In this document: piece by piece, positions 35,108 to 52,218 of the stretch
Layout: each line of letters opens with the position of its first letter
Position numbering within the stretch: the first letter of the stretch is position 1
From: Candidatus Koribacter versatilis Ellin345
GTDB lineage: Bacteria; Acidobacteriota; Terriglobia; Terriglobales; Acidobacteriaceae
DNA length: 64,000 nt
NCBI RefSeq assembly: GCF_000014005.1
Contig: NC_008009.1
Location: 2,108,001-2,172,000 of the forward strand
Direction: 5' to 3'
Program-made: the position numbers and the translations under genes
The notes under the pieces: model-generated
The model's input: only the letters and a program-made list of their open reading frames with translations
The model's database searches: none
What the model was told of the DNA's origin: nothing

Positions 35108-35605
35108 TTATGCGGAGGCGACGAGCTCTTCGCCGCGACGACGCCGGTTGTAGCGCATCGCGATATTCATGAACACATTTCCTGCTGGCGTCTCGACGAA
35201 CATCACCAGCGCTTCTGTGTCTTCGCTGCCTGGTAGTCCAACGTCATCCTTATGCACTTGCGGCGGATGGATCTTGAAGCGGAAGCCCTGGTCGTTGAGT
35301 GCGGTGACAGCATTGCCGATGACCAGGTTAGCGAGCTCGCAGATCGTCTCGGCGATGATCTCATCAGATTGCGCGACTTCCTGGCCCGCGAGGGTTGAGG
35401 CAATTCGTGTGGCGGTTTCGGCGTCGATGTCGAAGATGATGCGGCCTTCGATGTCGCCGGTGACGTTGACCACCGCGGCGACGCCCTTGCGGCGGTAGAT
35501 CTCTTCCTCCATGGTCATATCGCCGATGCGCGTGTTGCATTGCAGCGTCTCGGCAAGCACCGCGTCGGCGGCGTTGATGAAGGGCTGGATGAGGTCCATC
35601 TTCAT
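35108..35605 (-). CDS. cheX: CheX-like CheY-P phosphatase
   Basis: The 165-residue protein is a CheC/CheX/FliY-family phosphatase that speeds loss of phosphate from CheY. The key ExxN pair is Glu90 and Asn93 in ICELANLVIGNA; a single such motif is the CheX pattern, whereas CheC usually has two. It is the last gene of the chemotaxis operon, and its start overlaps the cheY stop (ATGA), so response regulator and phosphatase are made together. No CheZ is encoded. Confidence 0.82.
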   Translation of the reverse strand: MKMDLIQPFINAADAVLAETLQCNTRIGDMTMEEEIYRRKGVAAVVNVTGDIEGRIIFDIDAETATRIASTLAGQEVAQSDEIIAETICELANLVIGNAVTALNDQGFRFKIHPPQVHKDDVGLPGSEDTEALVMFVETPAGNVFMNIAMRYNRRRRGEELVASA

Positions 35606-36057
35606 TGGCCGGAATCTCCCGCAACGGCAGAAGCCGACGCCATCGCCAAACCCTCGTCGCCAAGGACGTACTTGATCACCTCGTAGAGGACCTCGGGCTT
35701 CACCGGCTTCTGGACAAAGTGCCGCGCGCCCTTCTGGAGCGCCGCCACGATGTTCTCCTGATAGCCGACCGACGACACCATAACGATGCGGGCGTCGGGG
35801 TGCTGGCGCACGATGCGCTCGGCAGCTTCGATGCCCTCCATCTGCGGCATGGTGATGTCCATGAGCACGATGTCGGGGTGGGTGCGGTCGTACTCCGTGA
35901 TTGCCGTGCAGCCGTCTCCGGCCTCGCCCGCCACCTGGCCACCAAAGGTATCAATCATCTTGGCCAGGTTCTTGCGGGCAAACACGGAGTCGTCTACCAC
36001 GAGGTAGCGTACCGGTTGCCGGTCCTTGCTGCGGAGTAGAGCAGCGAATTGCTCCAT
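35602..36057 (-). CDS. cheY: CheY-like response regulator
   Basis: This is a single receiver domain of 151 residues with a 15-residue N-terminal and a 30-residue C-terminal extension. The acid pocket is Asp22/Asp23, the phosphoacceptor is Asp67 (LMDITMP), the switch Ser is in VSSV (94-97) and Lys117 is in QKPVK. It would be phosphorylated by CheA and dephosphorylated by CheX. Its output in a non-flagellar context is unknown. Confidence 0.9.
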   Translation of the reverse strand: MEQFAALLRSKDRQPVRYLVVDDSVFARKNLAKMIDTFGGQVAGEAGDGCTAITEYDRTHPDIVLMDITMPQMEGIEAAERIVRQHPDARIVMVSSVGYQENIVAALQKGARHFVQKPVKPEVLYEVIKYVLGDEGLAMASASAVAGDSGQ

Positions 36058-36119
36058 ACATTCCTCTCAGGGTCTGCCGGTATATTGTCGCCCAATCCGG
36101 CAAAACCGCGAAGTACTAA

Positions 36120-37211
36120 TCAATCGAACGAACTGACCCGTTGCGCCGCGCTTTGTACCATGAGCAAATTCGGCAATGCATCCAGCGCAACCACTCGATT
36201 CACGTTGCCGCGTTCTATGGCAACCTTAGGCATCCCAAATACCACGCTGGAGCCCTCGTCCTGTGCAACTGCCAGGCCGCCAGCGGCTTTCACCGCGCCT
36301 ATCGCATCGGCGCCATCTTCACCCATCCCCGTCATGATCAGGGCGACGACTTTTGGGCCAAACTCCTGGGCCACGGACCGGAAAAGCACGTCTGCCGAAG
36401 GCCTATGCCCGTTAACCGGGGGCTCATCGGACAAAACGACAACATCACCCATCGGCATACGGCGTACACGCATATGACGATTCCCCGGGCAGATCAAAGC
36501 ACGCCCTGCCAGCAGCAAATCCCCGGAAGCGGCTTCCTTCACTTCGATGGCGCAGGACTCAGCGAGCCGGTTCGAGAACATCTGGGTAAAGCCTTCGGGC
36601 ATGTGTTGCACGATCAAGATCGTACCGGCAAAATCGGCGGGAAGCTGTGACAGCATGAAGAGCAGGGCATTGGGACCGCCGGTTGATATGCCAATGGCGA
36701 TGATCTTCGACGGCGTCGTCCGCGAGGCGACGGGTGGTCGCGCCGGCTTACGCGCCGAACGCAATAGCGCTTCATCAACTGTAGCGATTTGCGGCCTCGG
36801 CTTGCGCGCGGCGCCGGCAACCTTGATCTTCGCAATGATCTCATCTGCCACATTCTCAAGGGTGAGGGAAGAGCCCTCCTGCGGCTTGGCGACGAAGTCA
36901 AACGCGCCGAGTTGCAGCGCCTTGAACGTCTCTCGCGCGCCCTGGGTGGTGTGAGCACTCACGACGATCACCGGAGTTTGTCCGCGCTTGGTTATGTGGC
37001 GCAGCATTTCCATACCATCCATGTTGGGCATCTCGAGATCGAGTGTGACCACATCCGGCCGAAGTTCCTCGATCTTCTTGAGTCCAAAGGCCCCGTCCAT
37101 AGCGGTGCCTATGACCTCGATCGCCGGGTCCTTCTGGAGCATCTGTGTGATCATCTTCCTCATCAGCGCAGAGTCATCCACCACTAACACGCGGATCGGC
37201 GTAGTCCTCAA
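36120..37211 (-). CDS. cheB: Chemotaxis protein-glutamate methylesterase
   Basis: CheB removes methyl groups from chemoreceptors when phosphorylated. The 363 residues form a receiver with phosphoacceptor Asp58, a linker (about 125-165) and the methylesterase domain. The catalytic triad is Ser174 (GISTGGP), His201 (VQHMPEGF) and Asp297 (GMGEDGA). TTG at 37211 overlaps the cheA stop (TTGA). With cheR it gives receptor adaptation. Confidence 0.95.
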   Translation of the reverse strand: MRTTPIRVLVVDDSALMRKMITQMLQKDPAIEVIGTAMDGAFGLKKIEELRPDVVTLDLEMPNMDGMEMLRHITKRGQTPVIVVSAHTTQGARETFKALQLGAFDFVAKPQEGSSLTLENVADEIIAKIKVAGAARKPRPQIATVDEALLRSARKPARPPVASRTTPSKIIAIGISTGGPNALLFMLSQLPADFAGTILIVQHMPEGFTQMFSNRLAESCAIEVKEAASGDLLLAGRALICPGNRHMRVRRMPMGDVVVLSDEPPVNGHRPSADVLFRSVAQEFGPKVVALIMTGMGEDGADAIGAVKAAGGLAVAQDEGSSVVFGMPKVAIERGNVNRVVALDALPNLLMVQSAAQRVSSFD

Positions 37212-39391
37212 GCCGAGGCTCCCAATTTTCTTGACCCGTTGCCGCTCGGCGCGCGCCCAAGGCGCTCGACCACAGAAGCAACGTTTAGGATCAAAACGAC
37301 CTTACCGTCACCAAGGATGGAAGCGCCGCTAACCAAATCGGTTGCGACGAGATTGTCGTCCAGGGCCTTGATGACCAGTTCTTCTTCCCCAACCAGTTTG
37401 TCTACGACCATCCCAAAGCGGCGGTCGCCCAGTTGTACTACGACTACGAAAACCTTGTGCTTCTCCGACTGCGGCTGGCGCTTGCGGCCCTCCAGCTTGT
37501 CCAGACGAACCAGAGTGACGATCTGTTCGCGAAGCTGCAACACCTCGTGGTGGTCCACGACGTGGATATGCTGCGAGGTGGCGCGAGCTATCTCGACCAC
37601 CGAGCCGAGGGGCACCGCATACAGCCGGTTGGCTGCGCGGAAGAGCAGTGCCTGCATGATCGCCAGAGTCAGCGGAACGCGCAACTGGAAAGTCGTTCCG
37701 CGCCCTTTTTCAGTCTGGATCCCGATGGAGCCCTTCAGGCGACGCAGCACGCTCTCTACGATGTCCATGCCCATACCGCGGCCGGAGATCTCAGTGACTT
37801 GGGTCGCGGTGCTCAGGCCGGGTCGGAAGATCAGGTTCAGCGCGTCCTGATCGGTCAGCTTTTCGGCTTCTTTCTCCGAGACGATGTTGTTCTCGATTGC
37901 TTTTTCAACCACGCGATCGCGGTCAATGCCGGCACCGTCGTCGGTGAGTTCGATGACGACCTGGTTGCCCTGGTAGAACGCATTGAGTTTCAGTGTTCCT
38001 TTGACCGACTTGCCGGCGGCGATACGCGCGGCTGGAAGCTCGATGCCGTGGTCCACGGCGTTGCGAATTAGATGCATCATCGGCTCAGAGAGCGCGTCGA
38101 GAATGCTCTTATCGAGATCGGTGTTCTGGCCGCTGATGATCAGATCGCATTCCTTGCCACTGGAGCGAGCGACATCGCGAACAATGCGAGGAAAGCGCCG
38201 GAAGAGTTGCTCCACCGGCACCATGCGGATCTTCATCACCGCGCGCTGGAGCTCATTCAGGATCTGCGCCTGGAACGCCATCGCGTCGGCAAAGCGGGCC
38301 TTCAACGGATCTTTCGCGTGCTGCTTGCCGAAATCGGAGAGCGTCTGGTTGAGCATCGACTTGTTGATGATCAACTCACCGACGAGATTGAGTACGGTAT
38401 CAATGCGATCGGCATCCACGCGCAGCAGGTTCTCAGGCGTGATCGCAAAGGGATTAGGCGACGGCGCATCGGCGTGCGCATCGCCGTCGTGCTCTTCGAC
38501 GGTGAGCAGAGCGGGTACGGTTTTGAGATCGGGCTTGGGCGGCTCGACTTTCTTCGGCTCAGGCGCCGGCGGCGCGGGCTTGGGCGGCGGAGCGACGGCC
38601 TTAGGAGTTTCTTTCGGTGCTTCGGTCGCGCGCGAGAGAATGCCTTCGCGCGGTTGTCCGGGGCGCAGATAGTCTTCGAGCAAAGTGCGGCGCGTAATCG
38701 CCGGAATCTGGATCTTCTTCTCGATGTTCTCGGGCGCCTGGAAGGTCGCAAGGATGGCCCGAATCGTCGAGATGTTTTCCGGCAGCATGTCGCCTTCCGG
38801 CTGAATCGTGATGGTGACGCCGAGCCCCTGCAGCACGTTCTTAACGAGTTGCAGAGCGGCCATGCGCATGGGGCACTGCGGGTCCACTTCAATCGCGATG
38901 TTAAACAGACGTGCGCCAGACGATGCGCCCTTCTCAGCGAGTAATTGTTCGTACTCGCTCCACATGAACTCAAGCTTTAGCGCGCCGCCGTCGAGTGCTT
39001 GCGGCTTCTCGGTCAACCGCTTAATCAGGTTGCGGACGTGATCGGTGGCCGGGAGCGCTGAATTGCGCTGATATGCGGTGAGCAGGGAATCGAAGGTGTC
39101 GGCAGCGTTCAGCACGAGTTCGACGAGGTTGCCGCTCGCCGCGTGCGTGATTTCGGGAGTAAGAGCGTTTTCGAGTTCGTGTGCCAGTTCGCTGAGTTCT
39201 TTAAAGCCGCAGGCCGCCGAGTCGCCCTTGAGCGTGTGCACGGTGCGACGGATGTCGCGCACGATCTCCGCGTCGTTGGGGTGGCGCTCCAACTCAAGAC
39301 CTTCGTCGTTGAGCGCTTGCAGAAGTTCTTGCGCGCTCTCGAAGAACAAGTCCCGGAGTTCGGCTGCCCGCTCGTCGGAGAAGAAGGACAC
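37208..39391 (-). CDS. cheA: Chemotaxis histidine kinase CheA
   Basis: The 727-residue kinase has an N-terminal Hpt domain with His52 (VHTLKGDSAA) and a P2-like region (about 150-235). A Pro/Ala/Glu-rich linker (about 245-300), the P3 dimerisation helices, an HATPase domain (HLIRNAVDHGIE, GDDGAGID, SGRGMGMD) and a CheW-like P5 follow. A GTG start at 39391 lies just after the cheR stop, with GAGG upstream. It receives signals through CheW and MCP and phosphorylates CheY and CheB. Confidence 0.95.
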   Translation of the reverse strand: MSFFSDERAAELRDLFFESAQELLQALNDEGLELERHPNDAEIVRDIRRTVHTLKGDSAACGFKELSELAHELENALTPEITHAASGNLVELVLNAADTFDSLLTAYQRNSALPATDHVRNLIKRLTEKPQALDGGALKLEFMWSEYEQLLAEKGASSGARLFNIAIEVDPQCPMRMAALQLVKNVLQGLGVTITIQPEGDMLPENISTIRAILATFQAPENIEKKIQIPAITRRTLLEDYLRPGQPREGILSRATEAPKETPKAVAPPPKPAPPAPEPKKVEPPKPDLKTVPALLTVEEHDGDAHADAPSPNPFAITPENLLRVDADRIDTVLNLVGELIINKSMLNQTLSDFGKQHAKDPLKARFADAMAFQAQILNELQRAVMKIRMVPVEQLFRRFPRIVRDVARSSGKECDLIISGQNTDLDKSILDALSEPMMHLIRNAVDHGIELPAARIAAGKSVKGTLKLNAFYQGNQVVIELTDDGAGIDRDRVVEKAIENNIVSEKEAEKLTDQDALNLIFRPGLSTATQVTEISGRGMGMDIVESVLRRLKGSIGIQTEKGRGTTFQLRVPLTLAIMQALLFRAANRLYAVPLGSVVEIARATSQHIHVVDHHEVLQLREQIVTLVRLDKLEGRKRQPQSEKHKVFVVVVQLGDRRFGMVVDKLVGEEELVIKALDDNLVATDLVSGASILGDGKVVLILNVASVVERLGRAPSGNGSRKLGASA

Positions 39392-39392
39392 G

Positions 39393-40292
39393 CTAGACCT
39401 CGATCCTTTGGTACGCCGTGCCGTTATTCACGTGCACCATGCGGAATTTGTCGCTCAGGCCGAAAAGACTCTCTGCATGGCCGACAAACAAATATCCGTC
39501 GGGCTTCAGGCAGCGATGGAATTTGTTGATCAAGCGCTTCTGCTCGGCTTCGTCGAAATAGATCATCACGTTGCGACAGAAGATGACGTCGTTGTGCTGC
39601 GGCAAGAACTCGGTCTTCAGGTTATGGAAGTCGAAGTGGATGAACTCTTTCAGCGCCTTCTTGATCATGTAGCGATCGTTGACCTTGTCGAAGTAACGAA
39701 GGCGGTAGGAGTAATCCACCGGTTCCATCTGGGTTTCGGAGTAGCTGCCTTCCTGCGCGGTGCGCAGAACGCGATAACTAATGTCGGAGGCGAGGACCTC
39801 AACCTTCCACGGTGGCGGAACCAGCGGCTTCGGGGTGGGCGTCTCGATCGGCAGGGGATTGCGCAGGTTGTAAAACGCAAGCGCATCACACATCAACATC
39901 GCGAGGGTGTACGGCTCCTGACCGGTAGAGCAGCCAGCGCTCCAGATCTTCAGCGACCAATCGCGCCGCTGGTGCTTGCGATGCAGGATTTCTTCCATCG
40001 TGATCTTGTGGAAGAGATCGAGCTGCGGCTTGTTGCGGAAGAAGCTGGTCTCGTTGATGGTGAGATTGTCCACAAGGGCAGCAATCTCTGTGCGCCCCTG
40101 CGAGCCGGTGAGCAGCTTGTAATAGTGGTAGAAATTGTCGAAGCCGTTTTCTTTGATGCGACGGCGAACACGGTCTTCGAGGAAATGCGCGCGGCGTTCG
40201 TCGAAGAACATGCCGCACTCCTGGTAGACGAGCGTCTGGAGGAGTTTGATCTCCGCCTCAGTAAGCGTGACTTGGATAGAGGGTGTCGCCAT
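39393..40292 (-). CDS. cheR: Chemoreceptor glutamate methyltransferase
   Basis: CheR methylates receptor glutamates using SAM. The 299-residue protein has the helical N-domain (about 10-85, GRTEIAALVDNLTINETSFFRN) and a SAM-binding C-domain with IWSAGCSTGQEPYTLAML. The FCRNVMIYFD and CLKPDGYLFVGHAES motifs follow. The only receptor in this operon has no C-terminal pentapeptide for CheR docking, so methylation would not use that tether. Gene order cheR-cheA-cheB is typical. Confidence 0.95.
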   Translation of the reverse strand: MATPSIQVTLTEAEIKLLQTLVYQECGMFFDERRAHFLEDRVRRRIKENGFDNFYHYYKLLTGSQGRTEIAALVDNLTINETSFFRNKPQLDLFHKITMEEILHRKHQRRDWSLKIWSAGCSTGQEPYTLAMLMCDALAFYNLRNPLPIETPTPKPLVPPPWKVEVLASDISYRVLRTAQEGSYSETQMEPVDYSYRLRYFDKVNDRYMIKKALKEFIHFDFHNLKTEFLPQHNDVIFCRNVMIYFDEAEQKRLINKFHRCLKPDGYLFVGHAESLFGLSDKFRMVHVNNGTAYQRIEV

Positions 40293-40309
40293 GTCCTCTC
40301 AGGTCTTCC

Positions 40310-40372
40310 AGGAGCTAAAGCCCCAGTTCATGAGTGCGTAAACGGCATAGCTAAAGCCATGCCCTGATACCA
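40310..40372. repeat. Hairpin repeat with two GCTAAAGCC motifs
   Basis: GCTAAAGCC occurs at 40314-40322 and 40350-40358. The second copy is enclosed by GGCAT (40344-40348) and ATGCC (40359-40363), so a hairpin forms; CTGATAC follows. This resembles short dispersed REP-like repeats recalled from acidobacterial genomes. It splits cheW from cheR in an otherwise compact operon. Confidence 0.5.
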
Positions 40373-40465
40373 GCAATTCAAATTTGCAACCGTATCTTCG
40401 AGCCCCGAACCCCTTGCTGCAAAATTACTGTCGTACCTTGCGCGACCACCGGCGTGCTGTTACCG

Positions 40466-40951
40466 CTAGGCGACACCGGCAGCATCGGCGGCTTCCTCTG
40501 CGAGGTCGCCAATGCGCTTTAATTCGCCACGCTGCAAAATCTTGGTCAGATCGATCAGAATAATGAGACGGCCCTTGAGCTTGCCGACGCCCGTTACATA
40601 ATTCAGATCGCCTGCTTCGAAGACATTCGGCGGGTTCTCCACCTGGTCTTCCGGTAGTTTGAGAACTTCGGAGGCCGAGTCCACGATCAAGCCGACTAAC
40701 TTCTTGTCGAGTTCCACGACCATTACGCGGTTCTTGCGATCGCTGGCGACCTGCTTCTCTCCAAAGCGCTTGCGCAGGTCAATCACCGAGACGATTTTGC
40801 CGCGCAGGTTAATGACGCCCTCGATGTAGTCGGGCGCTTCCGGAACCGCAGTAATGTCGGGGACGCGGACGATCTCGTGCACGAAATTGATCGGCACGCC
40901 GAAGGTCTCACGACCGACGCGGAACCCGACGAGATGTAAATCCTTCGGCAT
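40466..40951 (-). CDS. cheW: Chemotaxis coupling protein CheW
   Basis: The 161-residue two-lobed beta-barrel links receptors to CheA. Visible family strands are VGFRVGRETFGVPINFVHEIVR (8-29), YIEGVINLRGKIVSVIDLRKRF (42-63) and LVGLIVDSASEVLKLPEDQVE. It lies 11 bp after the receptor gene on the (-) strand. Confidence 0.95.
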   Translation of the reverse strand: MPKDLHLVGFRVGRETFGVPINFVHEIVRVPDITAVPEAPDYIEGVINLRGKIVSVIDLRKRFGEKQVASDRKNRVMVVELDKKLVGLIVDSASEVLKLPEDQVENPPNVFEAGDLNYVTGVGKLKGRLIILIDLTKILQRGELKRIGDLAEEAADAAGVA

Positions 40952-40962
40952 CGTCCTTCAAC

Positions 40963-42978
40963 CTAAGAGCGCGCTGTCGCGGCGTAGCGTGTGGCCGAGA
41001 TCCGGTCCGCATTACTTTCCTGGCCGCGATTGCCATTGCGGCCTACGCCGCTGATGGTGTCAATGATGAAGCGATCCATAGCATCGAGCAGTTGGCGCGA
41101 CATCTTCGACATCTGCTCTGCCGATGCTGCCAACTCCGTTGAACCCGACGTGCTCTGCTGGATCAACTCGCGCATGCGCTCCATGGCGCGAACGACCTGC
41201 TGTGCACCGCCCGCCTGTTCTTCGACGGCGGAATTGATCTCGTGCGTAATTTCGTTGAGCCGCGTAGTGGCGCGCGCGATTTGCGACGAACCGTGCGACT
41301 GCTCGTTGGTGGCAGCGCCGATCTCCTGCGCGAACTTGTAAACCTCGGTCACGACCGTGCTGATCTTCTTCAGCGCGACGCTGAGTTCGTTGCCGAGCAT
41401 CAGGCCTTCGTTCACGATGGTGGTGCTCTTCTCCATGTTTTCGACGGCCTTGCGCGCTTCCTTCTGAATGCTCTGGATAAGGTCGGAAATTTCCTTCGTG
41501 CTCTGCGCTGATTTTTCAGCGAGCTTGCGAACTTCATCGGCAACGACCGCGAATCCGAGGCCGTGTTCGCCGGCGCGCGCCGCTTCGATCGCAGCGTTCA
41601 ACGCGAGCAGGTTGGTTTGCTCCGCGAGATCGTCAATGACCTCGATGATCTTGCCAATGTCATCAGCGCGCTGGCCGAGGGCGTCAATGATATCGGACGA
41701 CGACTGGATCGCCGTGTTGATACGGCCGAGACCGTCGGTCGCCTTGGTCATCGTGGTGATGCCGCTATGCACTTCCTCGCGTGACTTGTTGGAAATGTCG
41801 AGGAGAACCTTGGCGGTGTCGGCCACGCGCTGAATGCTGGCGACCATCTGGTCGATGGACGCCGAGGTCTCGCTGACATTCGAGGCCTGCATCTGCGTGT
41901 TCTTCACCATGTTCTGCACGTTGACACTCATCTCGTGCATGGTGCTGGTGACTTCGTCGATCGCCGACGACGCTTGCACGCTGATCTTTGCGGATTCGTC
42001 GGAGGCATCGGCGACCTGGTTGGAACCGGCAGCGACTTGCGCAGCGCTGTCGCGTACGCGGCCCACGAGCATGCGGAGTCCTTCGGTCATACCGAGGAAT
42101 GCATTGCCCAGGGTGTCACGGGAAGAACGCGGGCGCACATCCACGGTGAGATCACCACCGGCGATGGCTTCGGAGGTCGAGGCCATCTCGGTGAGGTAAG
42201 TGACCATGGAGTTGAACGTCTTGGCGAGATCACCGACCTCGTCATCGCGTTCGATTTCAACGGTGTGTTCAAGGTCGCCCGATTCGCCAATTTCGCCTGC
42301 CATCTTGTTGAGGGCGTCGATTGGATCCACAATGCTTTTGGCGGTACGGCGGGCGATGAACAACCCAGCGAGGACCGCAATCAAAGCTACGAAGGCTGAG
42401 GCGACCAGTGTGACGAGGGAAGAGGTACTGTCCCGTTCGCGACGCTGCGTCAGTTCCTGCGCGTTGTCACGTTCAGCGTTATCAAGGGCTTCATCCGGCT
42501 GCGGTTGGCCCGCCCACTCATTGCTGACGGTGATGTACTTCAACTGAACATCGGTGGCCGTGGCATTGCCCATCTCTACCGACTTGCCGACTTGAATCAG
42601 CGGCAGCGCGAACTTTTCTTTCCAGTTGCGATTACGGTCTTCGAGCTCTTTGAGCGCAGTACGCTGGCCTTCGGAATAAGCTTTGGAACGAGCGTCGGAA
42701 AGGAGATGATCGAACTCCTCCACCCCGGAATTGAACTTGGCAAGGGGAGCCGGTCCGCCGGTCAGCACATAGCCGGCGAGGGCGACGCGGTTCTCCATCA
42801 TCTGCATGCGGAGCTTCTCGATTGCGCTCTGCATGTCGATCGCAGTCTGGGCGGCGGCCTTGGCGCTACGTTCGCGCATCACCGAGAGGAAACTCGCGAT
42901 AAACAGCACCACCACCAACGCGATGATCGCGCCGAACGAAATCATCAGGCGTTTTCGAATTGTGTTACGTCCGGTCAT
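40963..42978 (-). CDS. Methyl-accepting chemotaxis protein
   Basis: The 671-residue receptor starts at ATG 42978, with GGAGG upstream. TM1 is at about 11-33, and the extracytoplasmic part is a four-helix-bundle-like region (about 35-190). TM2 is at about 192-213 and HAMP follows to about 270. The long signalling domain includes the hairpin tip [28 protein letters not shown], which binds CheW/CheA. There is no NWETF-like C-terminal pentapeptide. It heads the che operon; the ligand cannot be read from the helical sensor. Confidence 0.93.
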
Positions 42979-43032
42979 GGAATCCTGTTGCCTCCCCGTG
43001 CTGCCTAACACCGGTCTCCGCTAAGAAAACGG

Positions 43033-43682: not shown

Positions 43683-43747
43683 GGCAGCCTATCGTGCAGT
43701 GACGTAAGCATCTACTCTCCTCCCCCTGTTTGAGACGGGACGACCCT

Positions 43748-46700
43748 ATGGCGGCTGGTACCAAGACCAGCGAGATATCCGGCACCTTTCGAGGCGCTCA
43801 AGAAGCCCTGCATGAACTTCTGCTGCAATTTCCTGCGACGGTAGATCCCGCAGAAGACCTGGTCGCACTGGTCACGCGGTTTTGCCGTGCGGTGCGGCAG
43901 ATGTTCGCCGCCTCTGGCGCTTATTGCTGGCTGCTGGCCGAAGGGCGGGAACTGACCGGCTTCGCGGCGGATGGGCTCCAGTCGGCGACTTTTCCGGGAA
44001 TGAAGCTCTCGCTGGACCAGCCTTCTTTGGCGCGACAGGCGCTGGAGACGGGAAGGGCAGCCTTTGTAAATCAAGTGGAACGCGACCCGGCGTCGCCAGG
44101 AGCAATCCTGGCGGTGCCGCTGATGGCAATGTCGCGTGCCACGGGCGTTCTCATCCTGACCCAGCACGACCGGGATCGGGAATTTGAGCACGATACGGCT
44201 TCTGCGGTTCTGGTGCTCGGTGCGCATTTAGGGGCGGTGATTTCGAACGCGCGGCTAGCGCTGGCATTGGTGGACGAGCGGCGTCGTAACGAGACTCTGA
44301 TCGAAGCAGCTGAGAGTTTCAATGTCCGGCTGGGCACGACCGCAGTGAAGCAGTCCATCGCCGATCGCACCCGGCGACTGTTGCAGGCCGAGACAGCTTT
44401 AGTCCTGTGGTCGCATCTTGAAGGTTTTTCGCTCGATTCCATCAGTTCGGGCTTGATCGTTCCGGAGCCGGTGCACGTCAGCGGATTTCTCTCGGAACTC
44501 GCTTCCCGCGCGGTTGTGGCTCTCGATCCGCTTTTCGGAAAAGCGCCGGACAACGAACCTTTATTACGCGGACAGATCATGGCTGCGCCGCTCCGAACGC
44601 ACGGCGGGCGAGGCGTGATGATCGTTTCCGGTGGATCCAAAACGTTCTCGGCGCAGGACGAGGTATTGCTGGCGGGATTGGCGACCTTCGGTTCCACCGC
44701 CCTGAGCAATGCTGAGCTTCAGGAGACCGCCGAGGTCCACTCTCAAGACCTTCAGCGGCTGCTGGACATTTCCTCCAGCCTGGCGCGCGGAGCGACGGTT
44801 GATCGCTTCCTCGATCAATTCGTTTTGCGAACTGCGGAGTTTCTCGAATACGAGCGGGCATGGGTCATCCTCCTCGATGGCGGACAGCCATATTTGCGGT
44901 GGACTGCCGACAGTGGAAGTTCACAATCTGAGAACCATCCTCTGACCTCTCCGCTCATACACCAGATCCTACAAAAGGACGAAGCGTTCGCCAGCAATGA
45001 TGTTTCTGCCGATCCACTTGCAGACCGCGGTTGGGTTCAGCGTCACCAGCTTCGCCAAATCCTGACTGCGCCGTTGCGCACCGCCGGAGGACGAGCGCTG
45101 GGGGTGCTGGCGGTCCTCGATCGTAAAGACGGGCGGCCGATCAGCGACTCTGACGGAGGCCGTTTGAAAGCGTTGGCAGCTGAGGCTTCGGTCGTGATCG
45201 AGGCTTCCGAGAACTTTGAGCGGCTCGAACAACATCGCCGCCGCGCGGAAGATCTTGTCGGGCTTGCGCTCGCGCTGAATTCCACGTTGGAAGTTGGTGA
45301 GCTCGCGCGAGCATTCACGCTCAAGGCGTCCCAGATGCTTGGCGCACCGGCAGCGGCGGCAGTCATCGTTTCGCCCAATGGCTTCGACGCCATCGTACTG
45401 CATCCGGAACGTCAAGGCGAAGACCATGTGCTCGCCCATCGCTTGGCCCACGGTTTGGCTGACGTCGTGAGCGCGCATGGTCGCGTCGCCATTCACGGCA
45501 GCGCCGCGGAGCTGCTTGGTGACAACCTCGGCAATGCACTGGGTTGGACAGACGTTGCGATTGCGCCTTTGGCGTCGGGTACAGGCGATCTAATCGGCAT
45601 GTTGTGTCTCGCGAACCGCGGACGCGGGCTCGATGATGTCGAAGCGCACCTTCTGCATGCGGTGGTCGCGCATGCTTCCGTAGCGTTCCAAAACTCAAGG
45701 CTATTTGGTCAGATTGCCAACTCCAGCAAGAGCTGGAGCCAGATCTTCGATGCCATTGGCGACCTCATGATCGTTCACGACGATCACAACCGCATCGTGC
45801 GGATGAACCGCGCCGTGTCGGAACTCGTTGGGGTCCAAGCGTCGCAACTCACTGGCATGGATGTTCGCGCTCTCGTACCTCTCTGTAGTACCGACGATTC
45901 GCCCTGTCCGTTCTGTGCCCTCGAAAGGGAAGGGCTCAGTGAGTACGAGAACCAGGCGCTGCAGCGCTCATATCTGGTCTCCACTTCAATGATCTCTGGC
46001 AGCACCGAGGGCCAAGTCGTTCACATCCTGAAAGACATTAGCGATCGTCAGGAAGCCGAGCGTCGCTATCGCGAACTCTTCGACAACATTCACGAAGGGC
46101 TCTTCTTCTCCACTCCAGAAGGCCGTTTCGTTGAAGTCAACGATGCATTGGTCAAGATGCTTGGCTATGACAGTCGTGAGGATTTGTTGCAGGTGGACAT
46201 TACCCACCAACTGCACATCACGCCGGCACATCGGGAGCGGTTCAGCACTTTGCTGGAAGAGCACGGCGCGATGAAAAGCTTCGAGTCCCCTCTGGTGCGC
46301 AAAGACGGCAAGATCATCCATACGCTGCAGAATTGTTATGCCGTGCGGGACGCCAGCGGGCGAGTCTTCCAATATCGAGGCCTGATCCTCGACATCACGG
46401 AATTGAAATCAGTGCAGACCGACGCTCAGCGCCAGCGCGATTTCAACCTCAAAATCCTCAACAACACGCAGAGCGTAATTATCGTTGCCGACACCGCCGG
46501 GCTGATTACCTACGCCAACGATCGCAGCTCCGACGCCTGCGGATATGATCCGGAAGGCCTGGTCGGAAAGCCGCTGTCGTTGCTGGTCTCCGCTGAAAGC
46601 CAGGAATTGTTTGCCCGCGCGATTGAAGCGACCAGCAACGGCGAGCAAGTCGAAAGCCTCGATCTTCCCCTGCAATGTGCGGACGATCGCGTGGTGCGCT

Positions 46701-47515
46701 ACAACGTGACTCTCAGCCCGATGCGCGATGAAAGTGGCAACGTCACCAGCATCATCGCCCTCATGACCGACATCACCGACGCTTCAATGCTGCAGGCCAA
46801 GCTGATCCACTCCGAAAAAATGGCCGCCGTTGGCCAGCTTGTTTCTGGCGTAGCTCATGAGGTCAACAATCCGCTTACTGCGATCATGGGCTATGCGGAC
46901 TTGCTGACATCCTCACCGGATATCCCGCCAGATGCACGTCGCGATCTCGGAATTATTCTTCAAGAAGCGCAGCGTACGAAGCAGATCGTTCAAAACCTGC
47001 TGAGCTTTGCACGGCAGTCAGTGCCGCATCGAGAACCGGTAGATCTCAATGCCGTCCTCGCGCGCACGTTGCAACTGCGCCAATACGACTTTGTAAACCA
47101 CGGCGTACGCGTAGAAGAAGATCTCGATCCCAATTTGCCGCCAGTCCTGGGCGATCCCCAGCAATTGCAGCAGGTGTTTCTCAACGTAGTGAACAACGCG
47201 TACGATGCGGTTCGCGAGGTCGCACGTCCGCCCGCAGTGCGAATTTCCACGGGAGCGGTGAACGGCGTTGTCGAAGTGCAGATCAGCGATAACGGCCCAG
47301 GAATCAGCATGCCCGACCGCATCTTCGACCCATTCTTTACGACCAAGGGTGTAGGCAAGGGGACCGGCCTGGGGCTCAGTATCTGCTACGGCATCGTTCG
47401 CGAACATGGCGGCGAGATCACTTGCGTGAATCATCCGGAGGGTCAGGGCGCGACCTTCTTCATACGCCTGCCAATCTATTTGCTGACGCCCGAGAAGGAT
47501 GAGGTGCGCGCATGA
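43748..47515 (+). CDS. Large soluble GAF/PAS sensor histidine kinase
   Basis: The 1255-residue protein has no membrane segment, so it senses cytoplasmic signals. About four GAF-like units span roughly 20-650, and three PAS units span roughly 655-1020. A HisKA domain has phosphoacceptor His1037 in VSGVAHEVNNPL, and an HATPase domain (NVVNNAYDA, SDNGPGI, GTGLGLSI) ends it. The first PAS contains C713-x6-C720-x2-C723, a possible redox or metal site. ATG 43748 is preferred over TTG 43730, which lacks a ribosome-binding site. It overlaps the receiver gene by four bases and is NtrB-like in its kinase core. Confidence 0.9.
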   Translation: MAAGTKTSEISGTFRGAQEALHELLLQFPATVDPAEDLVALVTRFCRAVRQMFAASGAYCWLLAEGRELTGFAADGLQSATFPGMKLSLDQPSLARQALETGRAAFVNQVERDPASPGAILAVPLMAMSRATGVLILTQHDRDREFEHDTASAVLVLGAHLGAVISNARLALALVDERRRNETLIEAAESFNVRLGTTAVKQSIADRTRRLLQAETALVLWSHLEGFSLDSISSGLIVPEPVHVSGFLSELASRAVVALDPLFGKAPDNEPLLRGQIMAAPLRTHGGRGVMIVSGGSKTFSAQDEVLLAGLATFGSTALSNAELQETAEVHSQDLQRLLDISSSLARGATVDRFLDQFVLRTAEFLEYERAWVILLDGGQPYLRWTADSGSSQSENHPLTSPLIHQILQKDEAFASNDVSADPLADRGWVQRHQLRQILTAPLRTAGGRALGVLAVLDRKDGRPISDSDGGRLKALAAEASVVIEASENFERLEQHRRRAEDLVGLALALNSTLEVGELARAFTLKASQMLGAPAAAAVIVSPNGFDAIVLHPERQGEDHVLAHRLAHGLADVVSAHGRVAIHGSAAELLGDNLGNALGWTDVAIAPLASGTGDLIGMLCLANRGRGLDDVEAHLLHAVVAHASVAFQNSRLFGQIANSSKSWSQIFDAIGDLMIVHDDHNRIVRMNRAVSELVGVQASQLTGMDVRALVPLCSTDDSPCPFCALEREGLSEYENQALQRSYLVSTSMISGSTEGQVVHILKDISDRQEAERRYRELFDNIHEGLFFSTPEGRFVEVNDALVKMLGYDSREDLLQVDITHQLHITPAHRERFSTLLEEHGAMKSFESPLVRKDGKIIHTLQNCYAVRDASGRVFQYRGLILDITELKSVQTDAQRQRDFNLKILNNTQSVIIVADTAGLITYANDRSSDACGYDPEGLVGKPLSLLVSAESQELFARAIEATSNGEQVESLDLPLQCADDRVVRYNVTLSPMRDESGNVTSIIALMTDITDASMLQAKLIHSEKMAAVGQLVSGVAHEVNNPLTAIMGYADLLTSSPDIPPDARRDLGIILQEAQRTKQIVQNLLSFARQSVPHREPVDLNAVLARTLQLRQYDFVNHGVRVEEDLDPNLPPVLGDPQQLQQVFLNVVNNAYDAVREVARPPAVRISTGAVNGVVEVQISDNGPGISMPDRIFDPFFTTKGVGKGTGLGLSICYGIVREHGGEITCVNHPEGQGATFFIRLPIYLLTPEKDEVRA

Positions 47516-47901
47516 TTGCTCCATTGCTCGTGATTGAAGACGAACCTGCGGTGATGTCGTTCGTGCGGCGCGCTCTGGAACGCGGTGGCTACACCGTCGT
47601 CGGCGCGAACTCCGGCATGCAGGCGCTCGAGTTGCTGAAGGGGCAGCAGTTCCAGGGGATCATTTCCGACATGCGCACGCCGGGCAATGTGGATGGTGGC
47701 GGCGTCTATCACTGGATCCGCGAGCACCGTCCGGAACTTGCCAATCGCATCGTTTTCATCACCGGCGACATCGTGAATGAAGAGACGGTCGCGGTGTTGA
47801 AAGAAACCGGCGCTCCTTGTGTAGAGAAGCCGTTCCGCGTGCAGGACCTCATTGCCACAGTCGAGAACACTATCGGCAAACCGCAACAGGAGACGTTATG
47901 A
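47512..47901 (+). CDS. Single-domain receiver (CheY-like)
   Basis: The 129-residue receiver has acid-pocket Glu/Asp at 9-11, phosphoacceptor Asp53 (IISDMRTPG), a Thr in FITGD and the conserved Lys in CVEKPF. It has no output domain. It sits between a kinase and an NtrC-type regulator with ATGA overlaps on both sides. It may be a phosphate sink or a relay step towards the DHp-like protein at 51383. No direct evidence decides this. Confidence 0.9.
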   Translation: MIAPLLVIEDEPAVMSFVRRALERGGYTVVGANSGMQALELLKGQQFQGIISDMRTPGNVDGGGVYHWIREHRPELANRIVFITGDIVNEETVAVLKETGAPCVEKPFRVQDLIATVENTIGKPQQETL

Positions 47902-49298
47902 CGGATGACTATCGCATACGTTTTCTGATCGTGGATGACCAGCAGAGCATTCGCAAGCTTTGCATCGCCATCGGCAACACCCTCGGCTTTATCTGCAGCG
48001 AAGCCGAGAGCGCCGAAGCCGCACTGGCGGCGCTCGAAACGCAATCGCCCGACATCATTCTTGCCGACTTACGCATGGGTGAGTTGAGTGGCATCGATTT
48101 CCTCGCCAGTGTGAAGAAGCTTCTGCCGCGCACCGAAGTCGCCATCATGACCGGCTATGGCTCGATCGAAACCGCAGTGCAATCGATGAAACTCGGCGCT
48201 TACGACTACATCACCAAGCCGTTCCGCGTGGAAGAACTCAAGATCATTCTGCAGAGAATGGCGGAGAAAGTCCGTCTCGTGGCCGAAAACCACTTCCTGC
48301 GCGAACGTGTGAACACCGAGATGGAATTGCACGGCATCGTGGGATCTTCAGCAAAGATCCAGGATGTGCTGCGCATGGTCGGTCGCTTGAAAGACACGCG
48401 GACCCCGGTGTTGATCTGCGGCGAGAGCGGTACAGGAAAAGAACTCGTCGCCCGCGCCATGCACTTCCGCGGCGGCTTTGCGAAGCGTCCGTTCGTCGCG
48501 GTGGATTGCGGGTCGCTGGTTCCCACCCTGATTGAGAGCGAACTCTTCGGCCACGAGAAAGGCGCGTTCACCGGCGCGATCAAGCCGAAAGAAGGTCTGT
48601 TCCAGGCAGCGAACGGCGGCACCATCTTCCTCGACGAAATCGGTGAACTTCCGCTGGACTTGCAGGCCAAGTTGCTCCGCGTCCTTCAGGACAAGCAGGT
48701 CCGACCGGTGGGCAGCAATCAATCCGTTAAGGTAGATGTACGCGTGATTGCCGCGACCAACCGTGATCTTGAGGCCGGCTACAAGACCGGGACGTTCCGC
48801 AAGGACCTTTACTTCCGCCTGAACGTAGTCACGGTTTATCTACCGTCATTGCGTGAGCGGAAATCCGATATTCCTTCGCTCATCCAGCATTTCATCGATC
48901 GCCCCTCTGCTGGCCGCGAGGGTGTCGAAGTGACCTCTCAGGCGATGAAGAGCCTGATGCAATACGACTGGCCGGGCAACGTCCGCGAGCTGGAGAACTG
49001 TATCGAACGCGCCGTCGCGCTCGGCAATGGGGAAGTGATCGATGTTGACGATCTCCCGCCCTCATTGCAGGCCATGGCGCCGAAGAAAAATGCGCCAGCC
49101 GTCTCCGAAGGCTACGACTCCACCGATCTCGAGGACATAGAACGCACAACAATCCAGCGGGTCTTCGATCAAGTGGGCGGAGACAAGGGGCTCGCTCTCA
49201 AAATGCTCGGGATTAGTCGTGCGACGCTGTACCGCAAAATCAAGCGCTACAACATCGATATCTCACGCACGGCGAGGGCAGCTGCTTCCGGCGAATAA
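47898..49298 (+). CDS. NtrC-family sigma-54-dependent response regulator
   Basis: The 466-residue activator has a receiver (Asp57, Lys107), an AAA+ domain and a Fis-type HTH. The AAA+ domain carries Walker A GESGTGKE (175-182), the sigma-54-contacting loop GAFTGA (222-227) and Walker B TIFLDEIGE (242-250). The HTH ends the protein (MLGISRATLYRKIKRY). The intact GAFTGA makes it a true sigma-54 activator. It is coupled to the kinase and receiver, and palindromes flank the operon beside two sigma-54 promoters, so those are its likely targets. Confidence 0.95.
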   Translation: MTDDYRIRFLIVDDQQSIRKLCIAIGNTLGFICSEAESAEAALAALETQSPDIILADLRMGELSGIDFLASVKKLLPRTEVAIMTGYGSIETAVQSMKLGAYDYITKPFRVEELKIILQRMAEKVRLVAENHFLRERVNTEMELHGIVGSSAKIQDVLRMVGRLKDTRTPVLICGESGTGKELVARAMHFRGGFAKRPFVAVDCGSLVPTLIESELFGHEKGAFTGAIKPKEGLFQAANGGTIFLDEIGELPLDLQAKLLRVLQDKQVRPVGSNQSVKVDVRVIAATNRDLEAGYKTGTFRKDLYFRLNVVTVYLPSLRERKSDIPSLIQHFIDRPSAGREGVEVTSQAMKSLMQYDWPGNVRELENCIERAVALGNGEVIDVDDLPPSLQAMAPKKNAPAVSEGYDSTDLEDIERTTIQRVFDQVGGDKGLALKMLGISRATLYRKIKRYNIDISRTARAAASGE

Positions 49299-49300
49299 CG

Positions 49301-49326
49301 TGAGACACTTCGTCTCAGCTTGAGAC
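49301..49326. promoter_or_regulatory. Putative NtrC-type activator sites, downstream cluster
   Basis: TGAGAC (49301-49306) is followed by a perfect GTCTCA-GCT-TGAGAC (49312-49326), the same dyad and 3-nt spacer as at 43612. It lies 94-119 bp upstream of the (+) sigma-54 promoter at 49420. Confidence 0.62.
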
Positions 49327-49419
49327 AACTGCACCAATTCCGGGGCGTCTGACCGTGCAGAGAGCTTAGCGCCTCCATAATTTTCAGTGGTTTACAGCGG
49401 CCATGTCTGCCAGTTGGTT

Positions 49420-49435
49420 TGGTGCGGTGCTTGCA
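49420..49435 (+). promoter_or_regulatory. Sigma-54 (-24/-12) promoter of the PilZ-like operon
   Basis: TGGTGCGGTGCTTGCA fits TGGYRYRNNNNTTGCW at every position, with GG and GC ten bases apart. The predicted start near 49446 leaves about 50 nt before GTG 49498. Confidence 0.78.
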
Positions 49436-49497
49436 TAGTAAGAGCCTCGCAGCGCTACGCACGGACGTTTCCACCGTGCCGTAGCCAGGAGGTATAC

Positions 49498-49845
49498 GTG
49501 GCAACCGGACCTGGACCCGCAACAGAAGCAAATTCTTTCGTGCAACGACTGTCCCAATTCTTTCCCGACGCGACCCCCGTTCGCATTCCCGTTCGCCTCA
49601 CTGGTAAGACAATTTCGGGTAAGCCCTTCTCTGAACGCACTACCATCGAGTTTGGTACTGCGCGCGAAGTGATCTTCGCATCGCACCTGCCGCTGGAGTT
49701 TGCCGACACGCTTCGCCTTGAGAATGCCGACGGAAGTCTCAGCGAAGACGTCAGTGTAGTGGCAATTCATTACTTCGATGGCAATACAACCGCCGTCGCC
49801 GCGCGGTTTAAAGGCGAAGTCGCGAACTGGATCGTGAAGGGATGA
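49498..49845 (+). CDS. PilZ-like small protein
   Basis: The 115-residue protein starts with GTG 49498, five bases after AGGAGG (49487-49492). RIPVR (RxxxR) precedes beta-strands as in PilZ domains, which bind cyclic di-GMP. The second PilZ motif, (D/N)xSxxG, is not present: the equivalent strand reads TIEFGTAREVIF. c-di-GMP binding is therefore doubtful, and a PilZ-like beta-barrel of other function is possible. It is the first gene of the sigma-54 operon and overlaps the next gene (ATGA). Confidence 0.6.
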   Translation: MATGPGPATEANSFVQRLSQFFPDATPVRIPVRLTGKTISGKPFSERTTIEFGTAREVIFASHLPLEFADTLRLENADGSLSEDVSVVAIHYFDGNTTAVAARFKGEVANWIVKG

Positions 49846-51386
49846 CCTCAGCAAGCCCACAGTCCGAACCACGGACTGCGACGTCGGAGTGGCGCACAGC
49901 CCGACGGCTGTATGCGATCTACTCCAACGTGATTGCGCATTTCGATGTCGGCGTGCCACCGTGCCCCGACCTCGAGTGTCCGATCGATCGCCCAGACTTT
50001 GGGTCTCGCGGACGCATACGCAATTGGCTGAACCTGATGGACAACCACTGCCCCGTCACTTTCCTGCGGCAGGTGTTGCAACGCGATCCCATCGGTACGG
50101 AAGCAAACATGCGGGCACTCATTCTGCGCCACCTCGACCGTCCGCACAAAACCGAATTCGATCGCGATAAGCTCGACTTCCTGCTGGTGCAATATTTTGC
50201 TCACTGCGTTCCGGACGACCTGAGCCCCGGCGAGTTAACGATCGCCGAGGTTGGCCGCGTGCTTGAACCCGTGCTCGGACACTGGAGTCCGGTGACACCG
50301 TATTGGTTAAAGCCGCTCGAGGACCTCGCCGAAGATGTCGCCAAGTGCCATTGCATGGCCGATCTCGACGAGTTCAAGATCCTCGAGCGTGGCCGCGACG
50401 TTAAGACCGTCGTTGGGAACAGATTCTTTGAACCGCCTGCTCTGATCGCGTTTACCCGTTACAACATCATCCTGCGGCGCGCGTTCTTCTACACCATGCG
50501 CGCCGACTTGGAGATGATTCGCGTCAACCTGGTGCGCCTCCAGAAGCATGGTGTGAAATCCATTGATGGAACGCGTGCTGGGCTCTCCGAACGTGAGGCG
50601 CTGAGCAGCGTGCAACGAATCTGTCAGGAGTGGCGCAGCATTTTTCGCACCGACTACTCCGCCGGGCACGTCTTCCGTTCCATCAAAGAATTGCGCGCGT
50701 GCACCGATGGAGCCCTCGCCGAGATCAAGCGCAAGCACGAAGAGGAACAAGCGAAGGAAGGGCGCCGCAAAGCCAAAGAATCTGCGGAGCAGGACAGCGA
50801 AGCGGTATCGCTCGGGATCCAGTTGGAAGTGGACCTCTCCGACAACGTGACCGACGAAGAACTCAACCGGGCACTCTCGGTGTTCGAGCACGAAGCCGAT
50901 CCCGAAAATACGGTAGAGCGCGCGTACCCCGAACTTACGGTGGATGCCGACCCGATCGCCGGCACGCCGGCGCGTTACAAGATTCCCGACGTTATCGGCA
51001 GAATTCATGCGCAGATTGTGAAAGCGCAGGAGGGGGCGGCTAAGCCTCTTTCGGTGCGGCTCGACAACTCTGCAATTCGTCTCGCTTCCTGGGAAGTGAA
51101 GGCGTTTTCGGTCGAAGAAGACGATCCCGTCACCGCGATCCGGCGCTCCGTGGCCGCGCGATTGATTCTGCAAGAAGCGTTTGACGACTTTCAGGACGGT
51201 TTCACTGCCGACCTCCGGGTCGCGCTGACCATCGCGCACGCCGAAGCCGGTCGAATGCAGGAGCGCATTGCCGAGGCCCGCGACGCGCGCGATCTGGACC
51301 TCATCGTTTTTCTGGCCGCCACTGGTCAGCGGATGCTGGAGTTGATGCACGAAGCGCAATTCGCCTGGAATGAGGAAATGCGATGA
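49842..51386 (+). CDS. Unrecognised 514-residue protein of the sigma-54 operon
   Basis: I do not recognise this family. The protein is soluble and mostly helical, with no signal peptide or membrane helix. An N-terminal part (about 20-130) has Cys-containing PPCPDLECPIDRPDF. A middle region (about 190-290) is rich in Arg and aromatic residues. A charged low-complexity stretch (about 290-320, Lys/Glu/Arg) separates it from the C-terminal part (380-514), which ends in long helices. It overlaps both neighbours by four bases, so the three proteins are made together and probably interact. Confidence 0.72.
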   Translation: MTSASPQSEPRTATSEWRTARRLYAIYSNVIAHFDVGVPPCPDLECPIDRPDFGSRGRIRNWLNLMDNHCPVTFLRQVLQRDPIGTEANMRALILRHLDRPHKTEFDRDKLDFLLVQYFAHCVPDDLSPGELTIAEVGRVLEPVLGHWSPVTPYWLKPLEDLAEDVAKCHCMADLDEFKILERGRDVKTVVGNRFFEPPALIAFTRYNIILRRAFFYTMRADLEMIRVNLVRLQKHGVKSIDGTRAGLSEREALSSVQRICQEWRSIFRTDYSAGHVFRSIKELRACTDGALAEIKRKHEEEQAKEGRRKAKESAEQDSEAVSLGIQLEVDLSDNVTDEELNRALSVFEHEADPENTVERAYPELTVDADPIAGTPARYKIPDVIGRIHAQIVKAQEGAAKPLSVRLDNSAIRLASWEVKAFSVEEDDPVTAIRRSVAARLILQEAFDDFQDGFTADLRVALTIAHAEAGRMQERIAEARDARDLDLIVFLAATGQRMLELMHEAQFAWNEEMR

Positions 51387-52075
51387 AACAGCCGACCGTC
51401 CTGGTGGTCTCCGACCAGGGGGAGTTCGCGCAGACGCTGATGAGTCGCTGGCACTCCGAGCGCACCGTCCCGGCGTTTACGGTGATGAACAGCGAGGTGT
51501 TCCACGCCAACGCGGGACAATCGTGCGACCTCATCATCGTGGGGCCAGTCGCGCGACAACGGTTTTCGGCACTCATGACCTTACTGGCCACACTCACACA
51601 GCCCGTCATCGTAGTCGCCGGCGACGCTGTTGATGCGATGAGCGCGAATAGTAAGAGCGCTCGCATCATGGTGCTTCGCCAGCATGAAGGCTGGGTGGAC
51701 TTGCTGATCCTGCTAAGTTCCGAATGTTTGCGTCGCCTCGAAGCCACGGAGCGCGCCGAGAAAGCTGAGCAGTCATCTGCCGAACTCGCCGGACAAGCCA
51801 TGCTGGGCCGCTACATGCTCGATATGCGCCACAGCCTGAACAATGCGCTCACTTCGGTATTGGGCAATGCGGAGCTGCTGCTGCTGGAACCGGGAAATTT
51901 CTCGGAAGAAGTCCGCGACCAGCTTGCGACGATCCGGACCATGTCGCTGCGTATGAACGAAATTCTTGCGCGCTTCTCGTCCCTCGAAACCGAACTTACC
52001 TTCGCAAAACGCGACTCGCAGCGCGAACCGCTCGCGTATGTTCGCTCCAATGCTGCTGGCTGGAGCACCTTCTAG
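51383..52075 (+). CDS. Receiver-like/DHp protein without ATPase domain
   Basis: Of 230 residues, about 5-112 resemble a degenerate receiver; the phosphoacceptor Asp position is Gly54 (LIIVGPVARQ). A helix (115-140) leads to a histidine-kinase dimerisation segment, MRHSLNNALTSVLGNAELLL (148-167), with His150 in the H-box. A second helix (176-205) completes a DHp hairpin. No N, G1 or G2 ATP-binding boxes exist. It could be a phosphotransferase that accepts phosphate from the receiver, or a decoy. Cotranslated with the unknown protein. Confidence 0.68.
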   Translation: MKQPTVLVVSDQGEFAQTLMSRWHSERTVPAFTVMNSEVFHANAGQSCDLIIVGPVARQRFSALMTLLATLTQPVIVVAGDAVDAMSANSKSARIMVLRQHEGWVDLLILLSSECLRRLEATERAEKAEQSSAELAGQAMLGRYMLDMRHSLNNALTSVLGNAELLLLEPGNFSEEVRDQLATIRTMSLRMNEILARFSSLETELTFAKRDSQREPLAYVRSNAAGWSTF

Positions 52076-52080
52076 CGCTC

Positions 52081-52218
52081 ATGCTGAAGAGAGAAGTTCT
52101 GCGCGATATCGCAAGGAAGAAGAAAGAACTGAGCGAACTTCTCGAAAAGCATCGTCGTTTGGAAAAAGAGATTGCAGAGGAGCGGAAGAAATCTCCGCCC
52201 CGGAGCAAGCGATCCTAA
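52081..52218 (+). CDS. Possible 45-residue charged coiled-coil protein
   Basis: An ATG frame of 45 codons opens six bases after the DHp-like gene. The product is nearly all helix-forming Lys, Arg, Glu and Leu, with heptad spacing ([16 protein letters not shown]), and ends in a Pro/Arg/Ser tail. No good ribosome-binding site is visible, though coupling to the upstream stop is possible. It overlaps the uvrB stop by four bases. Confidence 0.4.

Follow-up and report, generated by a model that had tools for sequence, protein, structure and literature searches.

The gene module and its chemosensory neighbourhood

The window (the whole stretch of DNA analysed, 64,000 nucleotides from Candidatus Koribacter versatilis Ellin345) holds a module of six genes, running from 43730 to 52075, that ends in the gene of a 230-aa protein combining a receiver fold with a HisKA hairpin. 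A full che operon (MCP, CheW, CheR, CheA, CheB, CheY and CheX; 35108-43011) lies divergently and directly upstream of the module. The genes, and the parts of the 230-aa protein discussed below, are as follows.

35108-35605, minus strand: CheX phosphatase
35602-36057, minus strand: CheY-like receiver
36120-37211, minus strand: CheB
37208-39391, minus strand: CheA
39393-40292, minus strand: CheR
40466-40951, minus strand: CheW
40963-43011, minus strand: methyl-accepting chemotaxis protein (MCP)
43730-47515, plus strand: GAF/PAS histidine kinase, 1261 aa, with HisKA and HATPase_c (His1043)
47512-47901, plus strand: single-domain response regulator, 129 aa, with Asp53, an acidic pair and Lys106
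47898-49298, plus strand: NtrC-type sigma-54 response regulator with a canonical receiver (listed ORF from 47817; likely start ATG 47898)
49387-49845, plus strand: small conserved protein, start uncertain, its gene overlapping the 514-aa gene by 4 bases
49842-51386, plus strand: 514-aa helical protein of no named family, its gene overlapping the 230-aa gene by a 4-base ATGA
51383-52075, plus strand: pseudo-receiver and HisKA hairpin protein, 230 aa (from ORF, Pfam, AlphaFold and structural matches)
51389-51691, plus strand: its receiver-fold domain, residues 3-103, with Gly54 (51542-51544) at the phospho-Asp position
51692-52021, plus strand: its DHp hairpin, residues 104-213, a continuous helix and a return helix
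51830-51832, plus strand: His150, phospho-acceptor position, His in 121/147 members
51842-51844, plus strand: Asn154 (His+4), the phosphatase position of HisKA proteins, Asn in 143/147
51851-51853, plus strand: Thr157 (His+7), 147/147

By their coordinates, the genes of the kinase and the 129-aa regulator overlap by four bases. The ATGA overlap of the 514-aa and 230-aa genes is consistent with their cotranscription, as had been proposed in a first, sequence-only reading of this DNA. A 45-aa ORF, very charged and coiled-coil-like, lies at 52081-52218 between the stop of the 230-aa gene and the end of uvrB.

We followed the module through related loci. Where 9 kb of upstream sequence was available (68 distinct loci), the kinase, single-domain regulator and NtrC-type regulator genes were found in 60 and all five partner genes, on the same strand, in 51; a gene counted as present if it exceeded an identity threshold anywhere on the same strand of the locus, without having to be directly adjacent, and many of these loci had been found with a peptide pattern containing NNALT. 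Across 200 genomes, 86 shared both the 230-aa protein and the kinase, 4 had the protein alone and 10 the kinase alone, and the kinase was missing in 100 of the 110 genomes without the 230-aa protein. For the 230-aa protein and the 514-aa family, 81 genomes shared both, while 9 and 4 had one alone.

The 129-aa regulator is a phosphorylatable receiver encoded near the 230-aa gene, with its Asp, acidic pair and Lys retained in 72/72 rows. In two genomes that encode the 230-aa protein, G046 and G102, the kinase was not found at E ≤ 1e-120, and the best NtrC matches had 43% and 51% identity, respectively, compared with 70-85% in three other genomes. The 230-aa gene of G102 lies directly behind that genome's only match to the 129-aa regulator; in G046 a 64-aa ORF stands between the only such match and the 230-aa gene, and the regulator retains its receiver residues in both genomes. 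This arrangement without the kinase points to the 129-aa single-domain regulator as the best single candidate for the partner of the 230-aa protein. The 64-aa ORF that separates regulator and hairpin gene at locus L069 (8962-9156) is similar to just one part of the NtrC regulator, its Fis-type DNA-binding end.

Chemosensory genes recur on both sides of the module. An opposite-strand MCP similar to that of the window was found upstream in 49/68 loci. Behind the 230-aa gene, a second CheW-MCP pair was found on the same strand in 31 of the 91 distinct loci with 2.5 kb of downstream sequence, and an MCP alone in 3 more of the 91. Two loci (L150, L124) have CheR-, CheA- and CheB-like genes after the 230-aa gene, as recognized by eye from the sequence.

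The confident model of the 514-aa protein had a pLDDT of 87.7 and a pTM of 0.82, and a Pfam family was not found; because the best Foldseek match had an E of 0.54 and a second structural look gave mostly short helical matches at the C-terminal part, we assigned it no function. Charged residues are nevertheless invariant among 59 rows (D67, R76, R108, K110, D112, R185, K188, R206, R212 and D242), and the protein may represent a new fold, enzymatic or ligand-binding, within signalling clusters. In a same-genus relative (L038, 8949-10132) the 514-aa gene is missing from its place after the small gene and before the 230-aa orthologue, and the 514-aa family went unmatched in that genome at E ≤ 1e-15. 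The small protein (49387-49845) carries near-invariant E-x-G-T and PLEF-x-D motifs; it appears PilZ-like by eye only, and the Pfam lists of 50 members contained no PilZ match.

Architecture and range of the 230-aa family

The 230-aa ORF is complete, from ATG 51383 to a stop at 52073-52075, and its His150 codon (51830-51832) lies within MRHSLNNALTSVLGNAELL. This histidine had been placed in a HisKA H-box, and Pfam bore this out: HisKA (PF00512) matched residues 145-200 with an E of 9.4e-8 and a score of 32.4 bits (cut-off 26.9), and no other Pfam family was listed for the protein up to E 10. In individual scans of 61 aligned members, 56 also matched HisKA at E ≤ 0.01, and an ATPase family (HATPase_c/CA) was found neither in the Pfam list of the 230-aa protein, taken to E 10, nor in those of the 61 members. 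An AlphaFold monomer built with 61 sequences (mean pLDDT 89.5, pTM 0.70) has a receiver-like fold with strands at residues 5-9, 31-35, 50-53, 75-79 and 95-99, then two helices, one long and continuous (104-168) and one returning (175-213), mostly at pLDDT >85, and a low-confidence tail (214-230). The two-helix hairpin is of the DHp type that had been expected, and since only the 17-residue tail comes after it, the protein cannot accommodate an ATPase domain, whose absence had been noted at the outset.

The N-terminal part had been described as receiver-like but lacking its Asp, and both observations held. The model aligned to the CpxR receiver with a VIA-align Z of 13.9 and an rmsd of 2.3 over 124 residues, Gly54 occupies the phospho-Asp position and the Lys at the end of strand 5 is missing. 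Among the 143 rows with a residue at the phospho-Asp position, 124 have Gly, 8 Asp and 11 another residue. Members of genus g29 without His150 (L056, L064, L065 and L068) have Asp at this receiver phospho-acceptor position, as do two g29 relatives with His (L059 and L070).

The best Foldseek match, LvrB of Leptospira (8vc9; E 4.3e-6, TM 0.48, rmsd 8.8), covered both receiver and hairpin. LvrB (Rec-DHp-CA) has the same domain order and the same helix running from receiver to hairpin; it differs in having a phosphorylatable Asp56, His161 and a CA domain in the description given in PMC13269768, whereas the 230-aa protein has neither the Asp nor the CA domain. Structural searches were more informative than a PDB sequence profile search, which returned a designed protein matching the receiver part only (E 8e-5) and, among the best 60 of 182 matches, otherwise weak hits such as lysozymes. 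A plasmid search with the protein sequence gave no match. We conclude that the 230-aa protein combines a receiver-fold domain that has no phospho-Asp with a HisKA hairpin that no ATPase domain follows.

In the taxonomic family of the window, 101 of 200 genomes had a match at E ≤ 1e-3 and 90 were counted as having true members, a count that takes in two weak or cut matches (G005 and G046); the remaining matches were weaker and mostly in long, kinase-sized frames. A class-wide search found 81/399 genomes at E ≤ 1e-20 and added a second family of Terriglobia. A phylum-wide profile search found 72/396 genomes at E ≤ 1e-9. Because its matches outside the window's family lay mostly in long open frames like those of ordinary kinases, the range of the family was taken from the own-family and class-wide searches; two short frames among these outside matches encode 135 and 243 aa (G380 and G445).

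For residue counts, 167 loci found by similarity search were reduced to 148 distinct rows including the window, and then to 147 since L275 ends before the hairpin; second pieces in G660 and G810 were left out. The window's family contributes 89 rows, with 84 His and, by subtraction, 5 other residues at position 150, and the second family 58 rows, with 37 His, 20 Pro and 1 Asn. A separate set of loci, found partly by the peptide pattern containing NNALT, was kept out of the Asn and Thr counts.

Hairpin residues and changes at His150

Position 150 is occupied in the 147 members by 121 His, 20 Pro, 3 Thr, 1 Ser, 1 Ile and 1 Asn, and position 154 by 143 Asn and 4 Asp, while Thr157, Gly161 and Leu165 are each present in 147/147. 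Residue 151 (His+1), acidic in kinases, is Ser in the 230-aa protein and acidic in 3/147 members; residue 155 (His+5), Pro in NtrB-type kinases, is Ala in the 230-aa protein and Pro in 0/147. The same positions of the adjacent 1261-aa kinase are His, Glu+1, Asn+4 and Pro+5, each in 73/73 rows (70 distinct C-terminal ends). The receiver-facing stretch of the hairpin, with the motif NNALTxxLGNAEL, is highly conserved while the remainder of the 230-aa protein varies, and residues 138-199 are 28% identical (E 0.06) to the kinase's own DHp. What kinase activity requires has thus been lost in the family, whereas the residue required of a phosphatase has been retained; the pattern suggests a protein that switches regulators off rather than one that passes phosphate on. 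In 20 rows (L193-L200, L202 and others) Pro150 puts a proline in the helix, and family-wide no Pro stands five residues later.

Non-conservation of His150 in orthologues had been named as what would refute the first reading, and the members bear this out in part. His150 is kept in most of them, but supported branches require three or more changes, which may include regains, to explain its absence from 26/147, and there are six changes on the best quick tree (142 rows, without L275 and the five long-branch rows L053, L055, L057, L066 and L069). An earlier tree of another set of 119 rows gave four changes, three of them forced. Asn154 changed to Asp three times on the tree, accounting for the 4/147 rows.

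The loci without His150 have kept their surroundings: of 14 with at least 9 kb of upstream sequence, 13 had all five partner genes (kinase, single-domain regulator, NtrC-type, small, 514-aa) in the same orientation. A complete second copy was not found in the Pro150 genomes at E ≤ 1e-20; each has one match, except G660, with two contig-end pieces, and G810, with one further partial match (residues 2-100). The median pairwise dN/dS of the hairpin was 0.12 in the Pro150 clade (20 rows, 138 pairs) and 0.06 in the His rows of the same second family (36 rows, 512 pairs). As dN/dS of the pseudo-receiver doubles about equally (0.28 compared with 0.15), the Pro150 hairpin is not specially relaxed, and the His-less members do not appear to be decaying genes. 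Repeated change of the histidine, no complete second copy and a dN/dS of 0.12 in the Pro150 clade together argue for a selected function that is independent of phospho-His.

Phosphatase, brake or relay

The function is most likely that of a kinase-less HisKA phosphatase or of a receiver-binding brake, and we place the phosphatase ahead of the brake. Specifically, we propose that the 230-aa protein acts as a stand-alone HisKA phosphatase linked to a pseudo-receiver, within an HK-RR-NtrC module next to a chemosensory operon, with a probability for this putative activity of roughly 0.48. A kinase-less phosphatase had no place in the sequence-only reading, which also drew no link to the neighbouring chemosensory operon. 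It is the reading that the residue pattern seems to fit best, with Asn+4 and Thr+7 kept, acidic +1 and Pro+5 almost or wholly absent and His variable. Loss of His150 in genomes without a complete second copy, the linkage of the module and the position of the gene behind the 129-aa regulator in G046 and G102 also argue for it.

The closest parallel is CrdS of Myxococcus xanthus, in which kinase and phosphatase functions have been separated by laboratory mutation: kinase activity alone depends on the +1 Glu, and phosphatase activity alone on the +4 Asn (PMC3510030). The half-life of CrdA~P was 53.5 min alone, 2.6 min with CrdS H371A and 0.7 min with wild-type CrdS (PMC3510030), so that a protein without the histidine still dephosphorylates CrdA; by analogy, the His-less members could do likewise. 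The module itself resembles CrdS-CrdA-Che3, which also combines an NtrB-class HisKA H-box, an NtrC-type regulator and chemosensory genes and has a second phosphatase input to the NtrC arm, CrdS and Che3 both keeping CrdA unphosphorylated in unstimulated Myxococcus (PMC3510030). CrdS differs in being a sensor kinase with a CA domain, whereas here a separate pseudo-receiver and hairpin protein lacks an ATPase domain. Isolated DHp hairpins of EnvZ and NtrB can also be phosphatases (PMC3510030); these are laboratory fragments weaker than the full proteins, in contrast to the 230-aa gene, which is natural and found in two bacterial families.

The mechanism that we propose builds on what is directly supported, namely the family, predicted fold, residue pattern, linkage and co-occurrence; from these we infer the dimerisation, substrate, regulation and activity of the 230-aa protein. 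A former receiver-histidine-kinase would have shed its ATPase domain and kinase-specific residues and would act only on the response-regulator side. The protein would dimerise through its helical hairpin, a phosphorylated receiver would dock on the conserved NNALTxxLGNAEL face, and Asn154 would speed dephosphorylation of that receiver, as in HisKA kinases in phosphatase mode. It would likely act on the 129-aa regulator (47512), on the NtrC-type regulator (47898) or on both. These would receive their phosphoryl groups from the adjacent 1261-aa kinase, with CheA from the neighbouring operon perhaps contributing. The pseudo-receiver, without the usual phospho-acceptor, may set the state of the hairpin via the shared helix, its input perhaps being the binding of the 514-aa or the small partner. 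CheX, CheC and CheZ are dedicated to receiver dephosphorylation and have folds unrelated to the HisKA hairpin; the CheX phosphatase of the window is encoded separately (35108-35605).

Several observations weigh against a phosphatase. Pro+5 is absent family-wide; it is important in CrdS, where P376A and P379A lost much phosphatase activity and left >50% of CrdA~P after 5 min, though P376, which corresponds to Ala155, is not described as essential (PMC3510030). Asp154 stands in 4/147 rows, and CrdS N375D had no significant phosphatase activity (PMC3510030). The histidine aids activity in CrdS, and a PleC His mutant, as quoted in PMC3510030, lost phosphatase activity. The histidine is, moreover, retained in 121/147 members. 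The dN/dS of the Pro150 clade is about twice that of the same-family His rows, and the 230-aa protein is missing in 10 of 96 genomes with the kinase. A second phosphatase would also need a reason, because the adjacent full kinase already carries the phosphatase Asn.

Thr157, Gly161 and Leu165 are at least as conserved as Asn154, and the conserved face could therefore bind without catalysis. RetS- or DivL-kind pseudokinases lower the autokinase activity of partner kinases by DHp pairing. The hairpin could similarly be a non-catalytic brake, the second option of the sequence-only reading, that sequesters regulators, or that pairs with the DHp of the 1261-aa kinase and lowers its autokinase activity. 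Such a role would account for near invariance of the whole receiver-facing stretch beyond Asn154, for the dispensability of the histidine and the kinase residues and for the persistence of Asp154 rows, and it agrees with the co-occurrence of protein and kinase. It leaves aside that the phosphatase Asn was kept in 143/147 members despite loss of Glu+1 and Pro+5; moreover, the protein persists in G046 and G102, where the kinase was not found, which argues against heterodimerisation as its only role, and identity to the kinase's DHp over residues 138-199 is low. We regard a brake as a serious but rather unlikely alternative to the phosphatase.

The sequence-only reading had named Spo0B-like phosphotransfer first. 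In such a relay His150 would take a phosphoryl group from the 47512 regulator and, in the manner of Spo0B or ChpT, hand it to NtrC. The architecture on which this was based stood, including the missing Asp and the HisKA hairpin without an ATPase domain; a single-domain and an NtrC-type regulator in one cluster would make a plausible relay, and most members keep His150, but the histidine is not invariant. A phosphorelay cannot pass through a proline. Replacement by Pro, Thr, Ser, Ile or Asn at least three times, retention of the five partner genes at 13 of the 14 His-less loci and the want of a complete second copy in Pro150 genomes at E ≤ 1e-20 all argue against a relay, and the adjacent full-length kinase could act on NtrC directly. 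The function of Spo0B and ChpT depends on phospho-His, and each carries a degenerate ATPase-like domain. Both resemble the 230-aa protein in using a HisKA-like hairpin without kinase activity (PMC3433190), whereas the latter has no ATPase-like domain, nor residues left for one, and a histidine that was dispensable in evolution. Neither Spo0B nor ChpT appeared in the Pfam lists of the 61 members at E ≤ 0.01, in a library whose Spo0B and ChpT models are unconfirmed. Phosphorylation of His150 from the 47512 receiver is possible, in His-keeping members only; a relay as the common function of the family is unlikely, and we give it little credence. A role as scaffold or localiser, linking the two-component module with the chemosensory array and using the hairpin for dimerisation only, would suit the complete divergent che operon and the 31/91 loci with a CheW-MCP pair behind the gene, but it is highly improbable, as the other 60/91 loci lack such a pair and conservation of the receiver-facing stretch against a variable remainder would be left unexplained.

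Returning to the phosphatase, we suggest tentatively, at a little less than even odds, that Terriglobia have a natural class of stand-alone HisKA phosphatases, derived from N-terminal Rec-histidine kinases minus the ATPase domain, the kinase acid and, repeatedly, the phospho-histidine, and serving as a dedicated off-switch between an NtrC-type two-component module and a chemosensory array. Among the titles and abstract openings listed by searches of open-licence papers, none described a natural HisKA phosphatase family without a CA domain or the six-gene module in Acidobacteria.

For annotation, the family cautions against naming HisKA proteins without an ATPase domain as phosphotransferases on the strength of an H-box only. 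HisKA kinases unite two enzymes in a single protein, and evolution seems to have repeated the laboratory split of CrdS, with the kinase residue lost, the phosphatase residue kept and the histidine repeatedly changed. If the activity is confirmed, the family would offer a natural test of the histidine's part in dephosphorylation, and NtrC-type regulators in an understudied phylum would prove to be under one more layer of control, a separate brake encoded next to a chemosensory operon.
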